Source of the DNA: Planctomycetota bacterium
Lineage (GTDB): Bacteria; Planctomycetota; Phycisphaerae; UBA1845; PWPN01
DNA length: 13,068 nt
Direction of reading: 5' to 3'
Assembly (NCBI GenBank): GCA_016209665.1
Contig: JACQVT010000151.1
Span: forward strand, 1 to 13,068
The translations under genes and the position numbers were made by a program. The notes below the pieces were generated by a model. That model was not told where the DNA came from. It was given only the letters and a program-made list of their open reading frames with translations, and made no database searches. Position 1 is the stretch's first letter; every line of letters starts with the position of its first letter. This document shows positions 3,385-11,799 of this stretch, piece after piece.

Positions 3385-3927
3385 ATGGCGAACTACGCAC
3401 TGGTGACGGCGTCCGGTAAGGACCGTCCGGGGATCGTGGCCGCGATCACCGGGGTCCTGCTGGAGCAGGACTGCAACATCGAAGACTCGCAGATGGCCCG
3501 GCTCGGACCGGACTTCGCCTGCATGTTGATGATCCGTATGCCCGAAGGGATGGTCAGCGAGCAACTCACGCGGAGCCTGGCCCCCGTCGCCGCCGAGTTT
3601 GGTTTGCGGACCCACGCCCAGGACCTTCGGCCCGAGGAGGCCGGCGAGACGCGCCCCGATCAACCCAAGCACGTCATCCACGTTTATGGGGCGGACCGCA
3701 AGGGCATCGTCCACCGCATCAGCCGCCACCTGGCCGACCGCAGCGTTAACATCACCAACCTGCATACCGAGGTGATTCATCACGCCAGTCCGCTGTACGT
3801 GATGATGATCGAGGTGGAAGTCCCACCCTTCGTCGATGCCGGCCGGTTACACGACGAACTGTCCGCCCTCGGCAAGCAGATCGATGTTGTCGTCTCCATG
3901 AAACCCAAAGACGACGCGCGGTTCTGA
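3385..3927 (+). CDS. Double ACT-domain protein of the GcvR type
   Basis: The 180-residue protein is two ACT domains in tandem and little else. The first covers about residues 3-78, with GKDRPGIV at 11-18 and NIEDSQM at 31-37. The second covers about 95-172, with GADRKGIVHRISRHLAD at 102-118 and SVNITNLHTEV after it. A short acidic linker (82-94) joins them. The arrangement and length match the glycine-cleavage repressor GcvR, which in enterobacteria binds glycine and sequesters the activator GcvA instead of contacting DNA. ACT domains typically bind amino acids at dimer interfaces. No glycine-cleavage gene is nearby, so the ligand and partner here are unknown. It is the only intact plus-strand gene in the window and appears monocistronic. 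The start has a good ribosome binding site. Confidence 0.85.
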   Translation: MANYALVTASGKDRPGIVAAITGVLLEQDCNIEDSQMARLGPDFACMLMIRMPEGMVSEQLTRSLAPVAAEFGLRTHAQDLRPEEAGETRPDQPKHVIHVYGADRKGIVHRISRHLADRSVNITNLHTEVIHHASPLYVMMIEVEVPPFVDAGRLHDELSALGKQIDVVVSMKPKDDARF

Positions 3928-3929
3928 GG

Positions 3930-3955
3930 ATCTCTATCGCCCCTGTGGCAGAGAT
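3930..3955. terminator. Possible bidirectional terminator between convergent genes
   Basis: atctct (3930-3935) and agagat (3950-3955) pair. Inside them gcc (3939-3941) pairs with ggc (3947-3949) around a cctgt loop, leaving an atc bulge. It fills most of the 41-bp gap between the convergent stops of the ACT-protein gene and the membrane-protein gene. There is no T run, so the evidence is mainly position. Confidence 0.4.
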
Positions 3956-3968
3956 ACGCGGCTGGACT

Positions 3969-4787
3969 TCACGCGATTGGAGACTTGAGGGGACGAGGAA
4001 GTGGCCGGTCCTCGCTCTTCTCTCCGCATTCCGGGCAGACTCCACCAGACGGGCGCTCGGAAGTCACATCCTTGTCTTTTAGCTGGCACGTCATCAACTG
4101 CCACACCGCTGTCCACCACGAATCCCGGGGCATCGCCCTTGCGGTGCCGACAGTCCCGACCAGCAACAGCGTGCTGGCGGCCAGGGATACGTACGGGCCG
4201 TAGGAAACCGGGAGGGAGCACGAGAGAAGCGAGAAGTAGCCCACCGCGGCCAGAGCGGCGGCAAACTCATGGAAGCGGGCCGCCTGCAATCCGAACCGGC
4301 TCGCCCACGTAAGGTAACTGAGAATGGCCAACCCTCCCACCATGGTGCCGGGCAACGACCACCATTCCCCGCAACGAAAAGCCTCATCGTGGTAGACGGG
4401 ACCCGTCCACAGCAGGCCAGCCCCGACCAGGGCCAACAAGATGGTGAGCGGGACGGCCAGGGCTCGGGCCAGGCGCGGCCGACCCGCCAGGCGTGCCGCA
4501 CCAACAAGCGCGATCAACCCGCCGAACAGATGGCACGCAGCGAGAGAGCAAAACGTGAAGAAGATCTCCGAGATGGGCATGTTCGGTCCGCACCACCAGT
4601 CGTACAGCTCCCACCGGATCAGGTAGGCGGGTGTCGTACTGCACTGATTGGTAAACGTGGGCAGGAAAAACGAGACTACCAAGGTCAGTCCCGCCACGAG
4701 GATGAGTGCGTCCCACAACCTGAGCTTCGTGTGCAAAGGCTGATTCTCCGCCGACGTCATCGATGCTGATGTTTCTGGCGTTGTCAT
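3969..4787 (-). CDS. Six-span membrane protein of unknown function, last gene of the sigma-kinase operon
   Basis: I do not recognise the family. The 272 residues contain about six hydrophobic segments (roughly 26-44, 72-98, 108-128, 146-164, 174-193, 197-215). The N-terminus (1-24) and the C-terminal tail (about 220-272) are polar. The loop after the first span and the loop before the fourth span carry cysteines (C49, C66, C139) and many tryptophans. The tail contains a single CPEC (251-254), resembling half of a zinc ribbon. The ATG at 4787 overlaps the stop of the upstream regulator as ATGA, and AGGAAAGG lies ten bases before it, so this start is preferred to an internal Met at residue 10. 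Being last in a coupled operon, it may be the membrane partner or the target of the regulator. Confidence 0.8.
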   Translation of the reverse strand: MTTPETSASMTSAENQPLHTKLRLWDALILVAGLTLVVSFFLPTFTNQCSTTPAYLIRWELYDWWCGPNMPISEIFFTFCSLAACHLFGGLIALVGAARLAGRPRLARALAVPLTILLALVGAGLLWTGPVYHDEAFRCGEWWSLPGTMVGGLAILSYLTWASRFGLQAARFHEFAAALAAVGYFSLLSCSLPVSYGPYVSLAASTLLLVGTVGTARAMPRDSWWTAVWQLMTCQLKDKDVTSERPSGGVCPECGEKSEDRPLPRPLKSPIA

Positions 4788-6010
4788 GACAGCACAACCT
4801 TTCCTGCGGGTGCAACTGATCCCCGCTCGATGAGTTCCACATCGAGGAGGACGTGTTGCGGCTGGAGGCCCGTCTCATCCATGAGGCGACGCTCCAGCAG
4901 CTCAACTGCCGTGCGGGCGACCTCATCGGTGCGTTGACGGATGGCCGTCATCGGGGGAGTCAGGGCCCGGGCAAACTCGGCGTCCTCGAGGCAGACGATA
5001 GACACATCGTTGGGGATGTTCAGGCCCAGCTCCCGGCAGGCCTCGAAGACTCCCCAACCGCTATGGGCATCGTGCGCGAGAACGGCGATGGGCAGGTCCC
5101 ATTCCTTGAGCACAGGCAGAACGGCAGCGTAGCCGCCGAACCAGCGCTCATCCTCACTCGTGCCCTGGGCCGTGACGGCGTTGTCGATCCAGACCTTCCA
5201 AGCGTGCATCGGCTCCAGACCATGGTCTACCAAGGCTTGCTCGTATCCCTTCAATCGTGCGGCCGCCGACGTCGGCGTGGGCTTCTGCGTGACCATCAAC
5301 ACGCGCCGATGACCTTGGGCGAGGAGATACTCGGTAGCCAGGTAGGCCCCCTTCTCGTGGTCCGATTCCACCACGTCCACCTTCAGTCCGGGAAGGGCCC
5401 GTCCTGCCAGCACCATGGGGCAGCCGTTGAGCTTCAGCCGGACCATGGCCTCCAGGTTCTCGGTACTGTCACCCGGCAGGATGATGACCCCCTTCAGTCC
5501 CGACTCAGCGATGTGCGAGAGGTTGCGGGCCTCCAGTGCGGTCTCACCGTGGGCACTGAACAGTTGCATACCCCAGCCGCGCTCCCGGCAGGCCTCCTCG
5601 ATGGACTCGGCCATCTGTGCGGTCAGGCCACCTTCAATCTCGATGGTGGCGAGAGCGACGGTGGTTTGACCATTCGCTGCCCGGTTGGGCACGGCGGGCT
5701 GGACGAACACCCCGACGCCGGGGATACATTGCAGGTGGCCCTCTTTCTCCAAGTGACGCAGCGCTTGCCGCACGGTGATGGTGCTCACGTTAAACCGCTT
5801 GCTCAGTTCCCGCAGCGAGGGTAGTCGGGTGCCGCCGTTGAAATCCCCTTGATCGAGCCGCCAGCGCAGGGCGTCGCAGACCGACTGATACAAGAATCGT
5901 CTCTTGTCCCTCCCCGGTTTGCGGCCGCTTCTTGGCTTGGCGCCCTTCTTGGCTGTCGACGGGCGCCGGGGGATTGAGCAACTGGCAATGGACGCACTCA
6001 TTCGACTCAT
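4784..6010 (-). CDS. GntR-type DNA-binding domain fused to LacI-type ligand-binding domain, transcriptional regulator
   Basis: The protein has 408 residues. A basic tail (about 15-38, rich in Lys/Arg) leads into a GntR winged helix (about 38-104). Its landmarks are LYQSVCDALRWRLDQGDF, LPSLRELSKRFNVSTITVRQAL and LEKEGHLQCIPGVGVFV. From about 116 to 395 it has the periplasmic-binding-protein fold used by LacI regulators: AESIEEACRERGWGMQL, SGLKGVIILPG, YLLAQGHRRVLMV, LGLNIPNDVSIVCLED and ALTPPMTAIRQ. This is the AraR-like architecture, which normally binds a sugar or related ligand and controls its uptake or use. The start at 6010 gives an ATGA overlap with the kinase stop, and the stop overlaps the next start in the same way. 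Coupling to a sigma factor and kinase instead of sugar genes is unusual. It may control its own operon. Confidence 0.92.
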   Translation of the reverse strand: MSRMSASIASCSIPRRPSTAKKGAKPRSGRKPGRDKRRFLYQSVCDALRWRLDQGDFNGGTRLPSLRELSKRFNVSTITVRQALRHLEKEGHLQCIPGVGVFVQPAVPNRAANGQTTVALATIEIEGGLTAQMAESIEEACRERGWGMQLFSAHGETALEARNLSHIAESGLKGVIILPGDSTENLEAMVRLKLNGCPMVLAGRALPGLKVDVVESDHEKGAYLATEYLLAQGHRRVLMVTQKPTPTSAAARLKGYEQALVDHGLEPMHAWKVWIDNAVTAQGTSEDERWFGGYAAVLPVLKEWDLPIAVLAHDAHSGWGVFEACRELGLNIPNDVSIVCLEDAEFARALTPPMTAIRQRTDEVARTAVELLERRLMDETGLQPQHVLLDVELIERGSVAPAGKVVLS

Positions 6011-9000
6011 CCATCAGGCCGTGTGGCGGCCGGCGTGTAAGAGGACGTATCAGAGCCTGCATTCCGCAGTGGCAGAACCTCCGAAAATCCACCTCGCTGG
6101 AAGCTTTCGTAACGCCGCATCAACTCGACCGTGCGTGGATCATTCGGCCCGAAGATGGTCTGATGCATCTCGGCCGCTTCCCGAAAGAGGAGATCGGCAT
6201 CGCCGCGCTGCTGCAGGCTCCACAGACGCATCGCGCCGTTGGCGAGGCCTTCGGCCGCCTGCGGACTGCGTTTCAGGTCTTCCGGGCTGATTGTCCTCCA
6301 GACCCGAATCTCGCCGTTCTCGGTGCCGGCGGCCAAAGAGGTCCCATCCGCACTGAACGCCACTGACCAGCCGGTCGAATTCCCGCTGGGCAGGGTAAGC
6401 AACTCCCAGACGCTGTCCCGCTTCCAGATGTTCACCCGGCCCCAGCCCCCGCAAGTCGCGATACGCGAGCCATCGGACGTCAGGGCGATACCGTAGACTG
6501 CCTTGGGATGGGTCAGCGGGGCGGCAAGGAGCTTACCCGTTTCGGGGTCCCATGTCTGGACGGTGCAATCGTCGGAAGCGGACAGCACGCTCTTGCCATC
6601 CGGGCTGAACAGGACCCTGCGTACCGTGTCGCGGTGGCCTGCGAAGATGCTGATCGGTCGCCGCGTCGCCAGGTCCCACACCACGACTGTCTTGTCGTGA
6701 CTGCCGGAAGCCACGCGCCAGCCGTCCGGGCTGAAGGCCACCGTGACAACACCCGATCGATGCCCGCGCAGGCACATCCGCTCAGTCCCCGCGCCGGCGT
6801 CCCAGATCCGCACGGAGTTGTCTCTGTCCTTGTCGAGATAATCCGCCGCCCCGCCGGCGGGCGGGACGTCGCGGGGGAGCAGTTCATCGCTCCCGCCCGA
6901 GGCAATGAGCCGCCCGTCGCGGCTGACCGCAACGGCCAGGACGCAATCCTTGTGGCCCCGAAGGACCTTCCGTTTGAGACCGGTGTGGGTGTCCCAGATG
7001 CCGATGCTCTTGTCGATGCTGCCGGTGACCAGCCAGGCGCCGTCCGGGCTGAAGGCGAGGCTGCGCACTTTATCTGTGTGACCGGCCAGCGTGAGCAGCA
7101 GCCGGCGCGAGGCAACGTCCCACATGGTGACGATTCCCTCGTTGCCACCCGAGGCCAGCCGCCCATCAGGTCCAAAGGCCACCGTGCGGGAAGCACGCTG
7201 GTGGGCTTGTATGCTCAGAGCAGACGGCGTGCGGTCGAGCCCCCAGACGCGAACGGCGAAGTCGTCGCCCGCGCCGGCCAGCCAGCGCGCGTCAGCGCTG
7301 AATACCAGATGCGACAGGTTGGTCTCTTCGAGCCTCAGCCAGCTCTGGGGCAGCCCCGTTCGCATATCCCAGACGAAGACCGTCTGGTCCGAGTCGGCCC
7401 CGGCGAGTAACCCGCCGTCGGGAGAATAGGCCAATGAATGCTGCGGGAGGCGCCGCGTCAGGATCGTCCTCTCCATCATGCCGCTTCCGGCATTCCACAG
7501 AATCAGCGAACCGTTTTCAGCGGAGGATGCCAGCGTCGTTGCATCGGGGCTCCAGGCCAGGGCAGTAACGTCGGCTTGGTGGCCGCGGAGGAGATGCAGT
7601 TCTCGCCGCTCCTGGATACTCCAGATGCGGACCATCTGGTCCGAACTCCCCGTGGCAATGAGACTGCCGTCGGGGCTGAAGGCGACGGTGGAGACAGACG
7701 CGCCGTGGGGTCCCAGCCGGGTCAGGCGGGCGCCCGAGACGGCATCGCAGAGTTCGAGCCAGCCGTTCGCGTTCCCGATTGCCAGCAGCTTGGAGTTGGG
7801 GCTGAAGCGCATCTGCTGGATCACGCCGTCGTGCTCGACGGGACACACCCTCTTGCCGCCGGCGGTTTCATAGACGGCCACCTTCCCCTCTGGGTCCCAG
7901 ATCGCGCATCGCTGGCCGTCCGGCGAGACGCACATCTTCTGGCACCGGCCGGAGACGGCGATCGAGCCGACTTCCTCGGCCCGCTCGGCGTTCCAGAGCT
8001 TGATCACACCGTCCGCGCCGCCGGAGATGAGCCTCGGCCATTCGCCAGCCACGGCCAGCGCGGTCACAGAACCCTGGTGCCCGCGCAGAACCCGCCAGGA
8101 ATGATTGAGCCGGCCGGCCAGCCAATACCACTCCCAGCCGCGCAGGTCCGCCGAGCAGGCGTAAATCTCGTTGCGGATCCGATCGAAGAGGCCAATGTCC
8201 ACCACGGACGCTGCCGACGTCACGTGATTCAGGTACATGACCCGGCGGAGTTCTTGCGCGCGACTGTCGGCGTGCTTCTGAGCCTGCACGGCGCGGTCTC
8301 GCTCTGATTGGGCGACCTGCCTCTGTTCTTCCGACACCCCGTGTAGTCGGTTCACATCCAGGTACAGGGTGGTGATGACGGTGAGCGCCGTTGCCAGTAC
8401 TACAAAGAAGCCCACTGCGACGGAGACCGGCAGGCGATGGCGGTACAGAAGCTTGCGGAATACGTAGAGGCGCTCGCGTTTGGCCTCGATGGGCTCGCCC
8501 GCGAGGTAACGCCCGAGGTCCCGGGCCAGATCTGCGGCGCTCTGATACCGGCGGTCGGGGTCCTGGGCCAGGGCGCGCAGCACGATGGCATCCAGCTCAT
8601 CGTCGATCGGGCAGCCGGGGCACCGGGTCTTGCCTGGGGCGTGTGGCTCGATCTCCTTCACTGGGCTCCATCGCCGGCTGGGCGGCGGAGGCGAGCCCTC
8701 CGTGATGCGCCGCAGGATCTGCGAGGCGGGCAGGCTGACGTCGTAGGGCAGGCAGCCAGCCAGTATCTCGTACACCAGCACGCCCAGGGCATACACGTCG
8801 GTACGGATGTCCGCCGCTTCAGGCCGTCCGGCCAGTTGCTCGGGAGCCATGTATGGCACGGTGCCGAGGATCTGCCCGGCAACCGAGACCACGCTGCCCA
8901 GGCGCTCGCCCGCCCCGCCGAGCGCCTTAGCCAGACCGAAGTCGAGAACCCGCGGCACCCCCTCAGAGTCCACCAGCACATTGGAGGGCTTCAAGTCGCG

Positions 9001-9639
9001 ATGAATAACGCCGCGCTGATGGGCGTGATTGACCGCCTGGCAGATCGAGATGAACAGGCTCAGGGCCTGCTCGATGCTCAGATCATGCTCGCGCACGTAC
9101 TGGTCCACGGGCAGGCCGCGCACATAGTCCATCACGAAGTAGCACCGTCCGTCCGGCGTCGTCCCGGAGTCGAAGATCGTGATGATGCTGGGGTGCTTGA
9201 GCAGAGAGGCCAACTCCACCTCGCGGTCGAAGCGGTGAGGCCGCTTGCCCGCCAACTGCATTTCCTCGAGGGCCACCTTGATGGCCACCTCGCGCTTGGT
9301 GGACTCTTGAATTGCCCGGTAGACCACCCCCTGGCCGCCGCGATGGATCTCGCCCAGAATCTCGTAGCCCTTGATGCTGTCCCGGGATATCAGCGGCACG
9401 ATCCGCACCGGGAGCTTCAACCCCTCCGCCACCGCGACCTCGGAACTACCGGGGGCGGGAGCACTCTGCACCGCACGCCGAACGTCGGCGGCGTACTCCA
9501 TGTTCGCCCGCCACTCGTCCACCTGGCCCTGGCACAGGGAACAGTACGCGCAGTGCCTCATCAACCGCCGGGACCGGGTTTCCGGGAGGGACTCGCCGGC
9601 CAGCGCGGCAATCTCATCTGTCGTCAGGCACCTGCCCAT
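6007..9639 (-). CDS. Membrane Ser/Thr protein kinase with N-terminal zinc anti-sigma-like motif and 14 WD repeats
   Basis: About 1,210 residues. At 29-36 there is HX3CX2C (H29, C33, C36), the signature of zinc-binding anti-sigma factors. The kinase domain (about 91-383) has a glycine-rich loop at 96-104, catalytic K121, E140, HRDLKPSN at 213-220, DFG at 233-235 and APE at 265-267, so it should be active. One membrane span (403-425) and a coiled coil (about 435-470) follow. Then come 14 WD-type repeats (516-1118), most with a GH near the start and WD-like ends, and finally a TPR-like helix pair (about 1147-1179, FGPNDPRTVELM). Repeat 10 carries an insertion of about 20 residues. The ATG at 9639 overlaps the sigma-factor stop (TGATG) and has GGAG five bases upstream. 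GTG at 9645 and 9642 are possible, but the former overlaps that GGAG. The kinase side is presumably cytoplasmic and the propellers external. The sigma factor next door is the likely partner. Confidence 0.93.
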   Translation of the reverse strand: MGRCLTTDEIAALAGESLPETRSRRLMRHCAYCSLCQGQVDEWRANMEYAADVRRAVQSAPAPGSSEVAVAEGLKLPVRIVPLISRDSIKGYEILGEIHRGGQGVVYRAIQESTKREVAIKVALEEMQLAGKRPHRFDREVELASLLKHPSIITIFDSGTTPDGRCYFVMDYVRGLPVDQYVREHDLSIEQALSLFISICQAVNHAHQRGVIHRDLKPSNVLVDSEGVPRVLDFGLAKALGGAGERLGSVVSVAGQILGTVPYMAPEQLAGRPEAADIRTDVYALGVLVYEILAGCLPYDVSLPASQILRRITEGSPPPPSRRWSPVKEIEPHAPGKTRCPGCPIDDELDAIVLRALAQDPDRRYQSAADLARDLGRYLAGEPIEAKRERLYVFRKLLYRHRLPVSVAVGFFVVLATALTVITTLYLDVNRLHGVSEEQRQVAQSERDRAVQAQKHADSRAQELRRVMYLNHVTSAASVVDIGLFDRIRNEIYACSADLRGWEWYWLAGRLNHSWRVLRGHQGSVTALAVAGEWPRLISGGADGVIKLWNAERAEEVGSIAVSGRCQKMCVSPDGQRCAIWDPEGKVAVYETAGGKRVCPVEHDGVIQQMRFSPNSKLLAIGNANGWLELCDAVSGARLTRLGPHGASVSTVAFSPDGSLIATGSSDQMVRIWSIQERRELHLLRGHQADVTALAWSPDATTLASSAENGSLILWNAGSGMMERTILTRRLPQHSLAYSPDGGLLAGADSDQTVFVWDMRTGLPQSWLRLEETNLSHLVFSADARWLAGAGDDFAVRVWGLDRTPSALSIQAHQRASRTVAFGPDGRLASGGNEGIVTMWDVASRRLLLTLAGHTDKVRSLAFSPDGAWLVTGSIDKSIGIWDTHTGLKRKVLRGHKDCVLAVAVSRDGRLIASGGSDELLPRDVPPAGGAADYLDKDRDNSVRIWDAGAGTERMCLRGHRSGVVTVAFSPDGWRVASGSHDKTVVVWDLATRRPISIFAGHRDTVRRVLFSPDGKSVLSASDDCTVQTWDPETGKLLAAPLTHPKAVYGIALTSDGSRIATCGGWGRVNIWKRDSVWELLTLPSGNSTGWSVAFSADGTSLAAGTENGEIRVWRTISPEDLKRSPQAAEGLANGAMRLWSLQQRGDADLLFREAAEMHQTIFGPNDPRTVELMRRYESFQRGGFSEVLPLRNAGSDTSSYTPAATRPDG

Positions 9640-10226
9640 CACCACTCCACGTCTACCATCCGATGCAGCTCCCGCATCCGCGAGAGCACCCGCTGGTTGG
9701 CCTTGACCACCGCCGCCTTCGACATCCCCAGGTTTTTCGCCACTGCCTCGGGGGCATGCTCCTGGAGAGTGATCGCCTCAAAGGCTGCCAATGTCGTCGC
9801 AGCCACGTCTCGGCGAACCAGGTCAAGACACGTCCGAATCACCGCCTGCCGCCACTCCTCTTCCCACACCTGTGCCGCGGCCCCGTCAGCCGCCCTCTGG
9901 TTCAGTTGCCGCTCCTGAGCCACGCTCATGCCGGCGGGGTCGCGGGCCCGGCGCCGCTGGATGTCGCGGACCTTGTTCTGGATGACGCCGAAGAGCCAGG
10001 ACCGTAGCCGTCCCCGTTCTCGGCTGTACCTGCCCTCCTGGTAAGCACGAGCGAAGGCGATAAACGTCTCCTGGGTCGCGTCCTGGGCATCGGCTTCGCC
10101 CAACCCCAGCCGCCTGGCGAAGGCCAACAGGACCGGCCCATAGCGCGCACAGAACTCCAGCCAGGCCGCATGGTTCCGCGGATCCCGCAAACCGTTCAGC
10201 AGCTCTGTACTGGTTGATTGCAGCAA
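9639..10226 (-). CDS. ECF-like RNA polymerase sigma factor, first gene of the operon
   Basis: The protein has 195 residues with the two domains of ECF sigma factors and no region 3. Region 2 spans about 19-92: AWLEFCARYGPVLLAFARRLGL, DAQDATQETFIAFARA for core-polymerase and -10 contacts, and LRSWLFGVIQNKVRDIQRR. Region 4 spans about 128-190, with a helix-turn-helix at about 157-180 (APEAVAKNLGMSKAAVVKANQR) for the -35. The linker between them is charged and rich in Ala/Glu. Pairing with a kinase-WD40 gene is characteristic of planctomycete ECF groups. Start choice: the frame opens after a TAA about 45 bases upstream and has no ATG or GTG there. TTG at 10226, with GGTGGG six bases before it, is the best option; CTG at 10223 is the alternative. 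The stop TGA shares its A with the kinase ATG. Confidence 0.9.
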   Translation of the reverse strand: MLQSTSTELLNGLRDPRNHAAWLEFCARYGPVLLAFARRLGLGEADAQDATQETFIAFARAYQEGRYSRERGRLRSWLFGVIQNKVRDIQRRRARDPAGMSVAQERQLNQRAADGAAAQVWEEEWRQAVIRTCLDLVRRDVAATTLAAFEAITLQEHAPEAVAKNLGMSKAAVVKANQRVLSRMRELHRMVDVEW

Positions 10227-10233
10227 ATCAACC
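10212..10233. promoter_or_regulatory. Inverted repeat over the start codon of the sigma-factor gene
   Basis: GGTTGATT and AATCAACC (arms 10212-10219 and 10226-10233) are perfect complements around six bases. The TTG start (10226-10224) lies in the arm-loop junction, and the GGTGGG ribosome binding site abuts the far arm. The arms are half A/T or more in a GC-rich context. It could be an operator for the operon's own GntR/LacI-type regulator, or an mRNA hairpin that hides the start. The symmetry is directly visible; the role is inference. Confidence 0.5.
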
Positions 10234-10738
10234 CACCGGCTGTATACGCCCCGGTACCGACGTTCTTATCTGCGCATCATGAATGTCCCATCGTGCCCTT
10301 ATACCCTCCGGCCTCCGCCCTGAATGCCATCTTTCGGGGCGGTCCCAGTCGAATGTCGCATCTTGCCGCTGTCCGCCTTCCCGGTCGCATGGGGACTCGG
10401 CGCCGGTTTGCCGTCAAGCGACCCCGTCGTCCCTGTCGTACCCAGACACATACGTCCATGCGCCTTGCCCACAGAAGCACACTCAAAAGCCTAGCCCTGG
10501 TCCTCCTGGTCCCCGCTCAGCCACAATCGCTCACGACGCCTCACAACCGGCTGGGCCGGACGGCTGTTCACTTCCTACCGATTCCGGCCTCAAGTCATGG
10601 GCTCCCCCATCCTTCTGAAGACTTCGCCGACAAGGCCCGGAAAAAGACACGGACTTTGCCCCAATCCCGGGCAACCGGGCACGTTGAAGGATGAGCCCGC
10701 CCGTTCGAGCGACCGTCGCTCGGCGGTCGCTCACCCGT

Positions 10739-10822
10739 AGGCCGCACGCCAGATCGGAAGCTGGCGACCGACGTCCCTCTCGTACTCCTGCGAGAGTCGT
10801 CGTCACTGGCTGCCAGCGGCCT
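10739..10822. other. Candidate structured RNA: closed multi-branch fold of 84 bases
   Basis: aggccgc (10739-10745) pairs with gcggcct (10816-10822). Inside are three hairpins: gccag/ctggc at 10748-10752 and 10761-10765; ctctcg/cgagag at 10777-10782 and 10791-10796, extended beyond an internal loop by cgacg/cgtcg pairs; and ctgg/ccag at 10806-10816. Immediately left, 10707-10715 and 10724-10732 form a perfect 9-bp stem. Three of the hairpin loops are eight bases long. Strand and function are unknown, and no known RNA family is recognised. Confidence 0.25.
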
Positions 10823-10923
10823 GCGTTCGCACGATACGGTCGGGGCGTCTCGCGTGCACCGCCCATATAGACGCGGCAGAGAGTCGTGAGGAACAGAGAA
10901 TCCGCCGGCACCACCTCCGATGC

Positions 10924-10937
10924 GGACCGATCGGTCC
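10924..10937. repeat. Perfect 14-bp palindrome
   Basis: ggaccga/tcggtcc is its own reverse complement with no spacer, the geometry of a dimeric repressor site. About one such palindrome is expected by chance in a window this size, so the assignment is weak. Confidence 0.3.
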
Positions 10938-10984
10938 CCTTCACGGGGTTGGCCCCGACGTGTTCCCCCCAGAGGTGCGGGGCC

Positions 10985-11010
10985 ACTGGCCTGACTCGCC
11001 ATCGGCCAGT
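10985..11010 (-). terminator. Hairpin directly after the lptB stop codon
   Basis: actggcc (10985-10991) and ggccagt (11004-11010) form a perfect 7-bp stem with a 12-base loop, beginning with the first base after the stop at 11011-11013. Position suggests a transcript end, but no U tract follows. Confidence 0.4.
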
Positions 11011-11799
11011 TCAGGCGCCCACGTTCTGGTGCTCGTCGGCGGGCTCGCGGTCGTCGAACTCGTCGCCGCGGAACGTGCTGCCAAGATAGATGCGGCGGAC
11101 CTTGGGGTCGTTGATGAGGTTGCGGGGCGGGCCCTCGGCGATGACCCGGCCCTCATGGATGATGTAGCTTCGGTCGGTCACGGACAACGTCTCGCGGACG
11201 TTGTGGTCGGTCAGGAGGATCGCGATACCGTGCTGTTCCCGCAGGCGGCGGATCTCCTTCTGCAGGCCCTCGACGGCAATGGGATCGACGCCGCTGAACG
11301 GCTCGTCGAGCAAGATGAGCTGCGGCTCGGTCACCAGGGCCCGGGCGATCTCCAGGCGTCGCCGCTCGCCTCCGGACAGGTCGCGGGCCATCTGTCTGGA
11401 CAGGTGGGCCAGGCCGAACTGCTCCAGGAGGCTGTCTGCCCGGCGAGACCGGTCCCGCCGGCCCAGCGGCATGGATTCCAGGATGGCCATCAGGTTCTGG
11501 CGGACGCTTAGCCGCTGGAAGACGCTGGGCTCCTGCGACAGGTAGCCGATCCCCCGCTGGGCCCGCTTGTACATGGGCAGCGGGGCGATGTCCTCGCCGT
11601 TGAAGATGACGTTGCCGGCGTTCGGGGTGATCATGCCGATAGTGATGCGGAAGCTGGTGGTCTTGCCCGCACCGTTGCGGCCCAGGAGGCCGACAATCTC
11701 GCCCCGGTGGACCGTGAAACTGACCCGGTCCACCACGGTGCGGTTTCCGTAGCGTTTGACCAGCTCGATCGCCTCAAGCAGCTTGGGAGAATCGGCCAT
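11011..11799 (-). CDS. lptB: LPS export ABC transporter ATP-binding protein LptB
   Basis: The 262-residue protein has every ABC ATPase element: Walker A GRNGAGKTT (40-48), Q-loop Q89, signature LSGGE (141-145), Walker B LILLDE with catalytic E166, and the switch histidine H199 in LLTDHN. The stretches IVGLLGRNGAGKTTSF, GIGYLSQEPSVFQRLSV, ARDLSGGERRRLEIARAL and LLDEPFSGVDPIAV are characteristic of LptB, not of amino-acid or lipoprotein transporters. LptB powers LPS extraction from the inner membrane together with LptF/LptG and the LptC-A-D bridge. Compared with the usual 240 residues it has an extra acidic tail (about 243-262). The ATG at 11799 fits the family start; the nearest purine-rich element (AGGG) is 11 bases upstream. 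None of the other lpt genes lies within the window, and the upstream gene is a signal peptidase. Confidence 0.93.
   Translation of the reverse strand: MADSPKLLEAIELVKRYGNRTVVDRVSFTVHRGEIVGLLGRNGAGKTTSFRITIGMITPNAGNVIFNGEDIAPLPMYKRAQRGIGYLSQEPSVFQRLSVRQNLMAILESMPLGRRDRSRRADSLLEQFGLAHLSRQMARDLSGGERRRLEIARALVTEPQLILLDEPFSGVDPIAVEGLQKEIRRLREQHGIAILLTDHNVRETLSVTDRSYIIHEGRVIAEGPPRNLINDPKVRRIYLGSTFRGDEFDDREPADEHQNVGA

Follow-up and report, generated by a model that had tools for sequence, protein, structure and literature searches.

A planctomycete sigma factor-kinase cassette in which the kinase probably serves as anti-sigma factor and a ligand-binding regulator is unusual cargo

Genes for ECF-type sigma factors followed by genes for Hanks kinases form a widespread cassette in planctomycetes, and the sequences and a structural model suggest that the kinase of such a pair is probably the anti-sigma factor of its paired sigma factor. 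The cassette is described here in a window comprising one entire contig of 13,068 bases (from a genome of 940 contigs, 77.55% complete), where the pair is followed by genes for a GntR/LacI-type regulator and a polytopic membrane protein, an unusual cargo that was seen once. The reading that the kinase acts as anti-sigma factor, that the regulator and the membrane protein are cargo, and that the wiring is serial, through a repressor acting in trans, is given a probability of about one half. The named relatives of the window proteins are from a Phycisphaerae bacterium and from Planctomycetota.

The four minus-strand genes between 10226 and 3969 (Table 1) were confirmed by open frames and profile matches, at the positions and in the families given by the initial annotation, and its junction strings TGATG (9641–9637), ATGA (6010–6007), and ATGA (4787–4784) were verified. 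The open frame of the kinase extends back to GTG 9645, and ATG 9639 agrees with the aligned relatives. The regulator may start at a second ATG, 6001, instead of 6010; a ribosome-site-like stretch, GGATGAG, precedes this ATG, which corresponds to the called start of relative P0020, and with this start the overlap between kinase and regulator becomes a 5-base gap. Short overlaps like those of the window are ordinary: by simple gene calls, the kinase and the next gene overlap by 4 bases in 13 of 47 sigma-kinase pairs, including that of the window. The downstream neighbor, which encodes ACT domains (3385–3927), is convergent with the operon, so the four-gene set ends there; the protein is presumably GcvR-like. 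A flagellin gene (1473–2882, Flagellin_N and Flagellin_C) lies near the operon, 784 bases separate the operon from the upstream ABC-transporter gene, and neither tRNAs nor Rfam elements were found in the window.

A scan of positions 3900 to 11100 yielded no sigma-70 consensus promoter, no internal promoter or terminator in the operon, and a single terminator-like site, which lies on the plus strand. The strong internal promoter that was named initially as an argument against a single unit was thus not detected, but this argues only weakly against internal promoters because the same scan missed the operon's own promoter as well. The GC contents of the regulator (0.638) and membrane-protein (0.626) genes are too close to those of the kinase (0.663) and sigma (0.658) genes to call a foreign origin of the former two.

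Table 1. Features of the four-gene operon (positions in the window).
Feature	Positions	Strand	Remarks
ECF-type sigma factor, 195 aa, TTG start	9639..10226	-	sigma2.2 motif DAQDATQE intact
Membrane Hanks kinase: putative anti-sigma domain at N-terminus, then kinase domain, a single hydrophobic helix, and WD40 propeller repeats	6007..9639	-	
Putative zinc anti-sigma domain of kinase	9400..9639	-	C4, H29, C33, C36 invariant in 41 aligned sequences
GntR helix-turn-helix + LacI-type ligand-binding regulator, 408 aa, start perhaps 6001	4784..6010	-	
Polytopic membrane protein from a small planctomycete family without a name; a single CxxC remains of the C-terminal zinc ribbon	3969..4787	-	
Operon upstream region	10227..10526	-	no regulator-class operator (best 3.7 bits), no sigma-70 consensus promoter

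The first gene encodes a small sigma-70 protein with sigma2 and sigma4 regions, i.e., an ECF sigma factor, and matches Sigma70_r2 (E 2e-11) and TIGR02937 (50.7 bits against a cut-off of 42.9, residues 23–186 of 195). The acidic DAQD of region 2.2 is present, 44 of 46 aligned sigma factors retain the acidic pair (exceptions: L129 and L135), and a longer DxxDxxQE pattern occurs in 22 of the 46, including the sigma factor of the window. Residue 5 is threonine in all 46 aligned sequences and residue 7 in 38 of them. A perfect 8-base inverted repeat with a 6-base spacer (GGTTGATT/AATCAACC, 10216–10237) spans the sigma start codon; a hairpin at this site was rejected, the region folding no better than shuffles (z -0.48), and no such repeat was seen by eye in the upstream regions inspected. 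In two other loci, the sigma match lies within a longer open frame, of 852 aa in L212 and of 368 aa (ORF call) or 1164 aa (search) in L211, perhaps representing a sigma fusion.

The sigma factor was found at 1e-30 or better in 64 of the 114 genomes of the order. In addition to the window, 19 sigma loci and one kinase-only locus were fetched from its own family and 40 sigma loci from the remainder of the order, the latter being the 41 best of approximately 110 matches outside the family minus one skipped at a contig end (G077:C1333). A pair was called when a kinase shared the strand of the sigma gene and was no more than three genes and 1.5 kb away from it in simple script gene calls, and 47 of the 60 sigma loci contain a kinase by this rule; L098 and L101, where the gene caller missed the kinase, and L100 and L108, where it is too distant, were left out. 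In a sample of the phylum, the sigma factor was found at 1e-25 in 21 of 294 genomes, and a same-strand kinase lies nearby in 14 of the 17 loci fetched outside the order (from 25 sigma matches). Eight of the 47 pairs have WD40 repeats after the kinase; the seven besides the window require four changes on the sigma-plus-kinase tree, from which L151 was excluded owing to a very weak kinase match, implying that the repeats were gained or lost several times.

The kinase of the window is a Hanks kinase with the motifs VAIK, HRDLKP, DFG, and APE (Pkinase, E 7e-45), followed by one hydrophobic stretch (residues 407–425) and 13 blade-like repeats. PADLOC matches to PD-T4-6 and MAD6 cover mainly the kinase domain and indicate nothing specific, and a role in defence was rejected. 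Numbered from ATG 9639, residues 29–36 read HCAYCSLC, the anti-sigma motif noted initially. The pattern HxxxCxxC recurs near the kinase N-terminus in 42 of the 47 pairs, against 0.11 expected from shuffled N-termini, the exceptions being L099, L102, L103, and L104, which form the most distant sigma group, and L151, where the kinase match has 20 bits. Outside the order, it precedes the kinase in 12 of the 14 same-strand loci, in two of them by more than 100 residues. The four cysteine and histidine residues of Table 1 are the sole invariant positions in the alignment of the 41 N-termini. Pfam zf-HC2 matches nine of ten N-termini tested (E 1e-7 to 0.0017), seven of which reach the curated cut-off; the N-terminus of the window kinase, alone among the ten, has no match.

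An AlphaFold2 model of the first 80 residues is a three-helix bundle with a mean pLDDT of 86.1 (approximately 60 over the last 20 residues), including helices at residues 20–32 and 34–59. The top match in Foldseek is ChrR with SigE, with a probability of 0.99 and an E-value of 0.28; among the 16 PDB chains matched, none reaches E 0.001, and anti-sigma factors bound to ECF sigma factors account for 15 of them, drawn from five entries, so that the predicted fold resembles that of ChrR, RsiW, and RslA. The spacing of the ligands presumably agrees with that of the zinc ligands of ChrR, in which we take the first ligand to be histidine, against cysteine in the window kinase. The signature of the class I zinc type, Hx3Cx2C over helices 2 and 3 according to excerpts of PMC7406223, is found at H29, C33, and C36. 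The N-terminus of the kinase is accordingly taken as a putative anti-sigma domain, and the zinc motif, the match to the three-helix fold, and the retention of the acidic motif in the sigma factor together suggest that the kinase is probably an anti-sigma factor. The initial view of a sigma-kinase pair with an anti-sigma motif inside the kinase is upheld by these observations.

What follows the kinase differs between lineages. In the 46 other pairs of the order, 34 of which have 2.5 kb or more behind the kinase, neither the regulator nor the membrane protein was found there; five contigs (L104, L118, L127, L154, and L157) end less than 150 bases past the kinase, leaving 41 informative pairs. 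L118 (G052:C544), the nearest pair, contains the most similar sigma factor (52%), and its contig ends inside the kinase. The seven other WD40 pairs likewise show neither gene behind the kinase (L157 ends within the kinase), and neither was found in the 17 sigma loci outside the order. The nearest approaches are two weak membrane-family matches (47 and 31 bits) approximately 7 kb behind the kinase in L141, a gene weakly resembling the regulator (32 bits) at 1.1 kb upstream in L106, a sigma locus without a kinase, and a distant ECF gene (22 bits) on the opposite strand 2.3 kb from the regulator in L073. Since the two genes were seen behind the kinase in the window alone, the conserved four-part module proposed initially is not supported; their absence beside related pairs, which had been named as evidence against it, is what was found in the pairs examined.

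Other cargo recurs. The third gene encodes a pseudopilin of the N_methyl/DUF1559 type in nine pairs by profile, two of which were checked with Pfam, and in nine further pairs a lipoprotein-like protein of approximately 300 aa is followed by one of approximately 385 aa, with only length and order placing L126, L130, and L141 in this group. Of two 385-aa proteins tested, one matches a metalloprotease, with a score below the cut-off. These cargo labels track the sigma-kinase tree, requiring 10 changes against 23.8 in shuffles, with one locus mislabeled: L124, the third gene of which appears by eye to be cation transporter-like, bears the lipoprotein-protease label in the tree and is not in the count of nine. 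The window's place among the cargo groups has no resolution in this tree. Lineage-specific plug-ins are the best explanation for the genes coupled behind the kinase.

The regulator combines a GntR helix-turn-helix (8e-18) with a LacI-type ligand domain (9e-33), both above curated cut-offs, and is thus of the AraR type, with a ligand domain that matches PurR and RbsR (E about 1e-26) better than AraR (4e-17). Relatives that are 72–76% identical are proteins from short metagenome contigs, among them P0018, P0019, and P0020 on contigs of 1.9–4.2 kb, and the sole match in a scan of named genomes was a Sinorhizobium stretch in the helix-turn-helix region. At 1e-50, the subfamily is confined, among the 114 genomes of the order, to 7 from the family of the window, with 16 copies including that of the window, one with an in-frame stop and one partial; none of the other 15 lies beside this sigma-kinase family. 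By eye, a secreted or pseudopilin-like gene adjoins the regulator in 8 of 14 loci, and in G000:C182 an N_methyl match starts approximately 100 bases behind it. Two copies of the subfamily stand in tandem on one strand in L080 (G000:C842, 292–2619).

From 14 regulator upstream regions, a script derived a palindromic candidate operator, TATCACA(C/G)TGTGATA, with a log-likelihood of 57.8 against 26.5–31.3 in eight mononucleotide-shuffled sets, the model being scored on its own training regions and the controls being searched from half as many starting points. Sites of at least 12 bits occur in 10 of the 14 regions (12.6–21.4 bits; below 12 are L076, L079 with 11.8 bits, L080_292, and L084), and in 8 of the 14 the site begins 9–28 bases before the called start. 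In relatives, these sites are found at the promoters of the regulators themselves and, in several loci, towards neighboring secreted or pseudopilin-like genes. In the window, the best site has 3.7 bits upstream of the sigma gene, 0.8 bits in the kinase before the regulator, 2.3 bits before the membrane-protein gene, and 7.8 bits anywhere; matches with three mismatches are at chance, with 10 found and 8.7 expected. In the whole genome, TNTCACNNNGTGANA with one mismatch occurs 28 times, against 8 for the reversed control. The recognition helix is the same as in the paralogues, which makes a new operator unlikely.

The membrane protein has four hydrophobic stretches and no Pfam or NCBIfam match, and a search for relatives with the single sequence returned only the protein itself among the best 7,998 candidates. 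A six-row profile gave 11 further relatives and matches in 218 of the 397 genomes of the class, with many listed matches covering the zinc ribbon only. This sigma family is absent from the 11 membrane-protein loci read. Only one of them (G009:C36) contains kinases, two with WD40 repeats, the nearer approximately 1 kb from the relative without overlap, with a different ECF-like gene beyond the kinase by eye; a tie of the family to kinases was judged weak. A kinase-WD40 protein of that contig (L088:3306-8312), roughly 1 kb from a membrane-protein relative, has a C-terminal aldose 1-epimerase domain (Pfam 1e-97).

In the mechanism proposed, which takes up the domain order, conserved zinc ligands, and intact polymerase-binding motif read from the sequences together with the fold match of the model, the zinc domain at the cytoplasmic N-terminus of the kinase would hold the sigma factor at the membrane, and the WD40 propellers, presumably outside, would sense an envelope signal. 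Activation of the kinase would free the sigma factor; binding, release, topology, and signal are here what we infer. If the released sigma factor drives its own operon, for which no promoter was identified in the upstream regions or in the scan of 3900 to 11100, it would raise a ligand-gated repressor that could act in trans at TATCACA(C/G)TGTGATA operators, and the membrane protein might, at a guess, be an envelope component co-expressed with the response. Serial control of this kind is a best guess, considered likely because the regulator keeps the DNA-reading helix of its paralogues and lacks a self-regulating promoter; nothing ties the function of the regulator directly to the pair. A still more tentative extension, which we would not favor over its negation, is that the cassette unites kinase, extracellular sensor, and anti-sigma factor in one membrane protein with an exchangeable downstream slot, filled here by a ligand-gated repressor acting elsewhere, such that a signal from the envelope and a metabolite inside the cell would combine in two tiers at distant promoters of surface-protein genes.

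Three other readings were weighed against the main one. The kinase could switch the sigma factor on by phosphorylating it, as in ECF43 pairs, and its intact catalytic motifs and the invariant Thr5 of the sigma factor, a possible phosphosite, agree with this; however, the acidic motif that ECF43 factors lack (PMC8999054, section 3.4) is present here, and the kinase bears a putative anti-sigma domain, so sequestration fits better and such gating is considered very improbable as the sole account. Phosphorylation may still trigger release, so that gating could be part of the truth, and Thr5 as the triggering phosphosite is speculation. It is possible, albeit somewhat unlikely, that the regulator and membrane-protein genes merely landed behind an established pair and are co-transcribed without shared function. 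The arrangement in one genome only, the subfamily's own promoters and operators in most relatives, and the absence of this sigma family from all 11 membrane-protein loci speak for such passengers, against which stand the two tight junctions with intact frames and the recurrence of coupled cargo behind the kinase in this family.

Less probable than passengers, and doubtful in our view, is an integrated module in which the regulator responds to a small molecule by acting on its own operon, so that ligand and kinase signals converge on the sigma output. The tight coupling of all four genes favors it, and the inverted repeat at the sigma start could be a diverged operator; yet no operator of the subfamily precedes the sigma, regulator, or membrane-protein gene, the unchanged recognition helix speaks against a new one, and the arrangement was not seen in 46 other pairs or 17 loci outside the order. 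The joining of ligand and kinase signals at sigma release, as envisaged in the initial annotation, is unsupported on the same point, the sigma promoter region reaching 3.7 bits where 10 of 14 relatives have 12.6–21.4. Of that interpretation, the sigma-kinase pair, the anti-sigma motif, and the tight operon stand, whereas the conserved four-part module and the integration at release are not supported.

Among known systems, the regulator resembles AraR of Bacillus subtilis in joining a GntR helix-turn-helix to a LacI-type ligand domain, whereas the candidate operator of its subfamily appears to be different; arabinose as ligand and the AraR operator are hallmarks of AraR orthologues. The four-gene set demonstrates that a second regulator can form part of the cargo of the cassette. 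The kinase resembles the planctomycete WD40 kinases of PMC11032199, for which available portions of that article predict a kinase inside, a WD40 array outside, and mostly one membrane span, in its WD40 array and single hydrophobic span, and differs from them in being paired with an ECF gene and in its putative anti-sigma domain; in the portions of the main text available, "zinc" occurs zero times and "sigma factor" once. No description of an anti-sigma domain within an ECF-linked kinase was found in the literature searched, and one may already have been published. ChrR, RsiW, and RslA, which are class I anti-sigma factors, share the three-helix zinc domain, the HxxxCxxC motif, and a gene directly after the sigma gene, whereas the domain is fused here to a kinase and WD40 repeats. 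The ECF43 pairs, i.e., EcfP-PknT of Vibrio and EcfK-PknS of Xanthomonas, likewise have the genes for an ECF sigma factor and a Hanks kinase side by side; according to excerpts of PMC8999054, PMC13147305, and PMC8103513, ECF43 factors are without the DAED motif of region 2.2, and phosphorylation supplies the charge. By contrast, the sigma factor of the window keeps the acidic polymerase motif, and its kinase bears the putative anti-sigma domain. According to section 3.4 of the review PMC8999054, ECF factors that are linked to kinases but lie outside ECF43 retain a DAED-like motif, may therefore work differently, and are still to be characterized; an anti-sigma domain inside the kinase, if true, would explain the DAED-like motif in this widespread planctomycete family.
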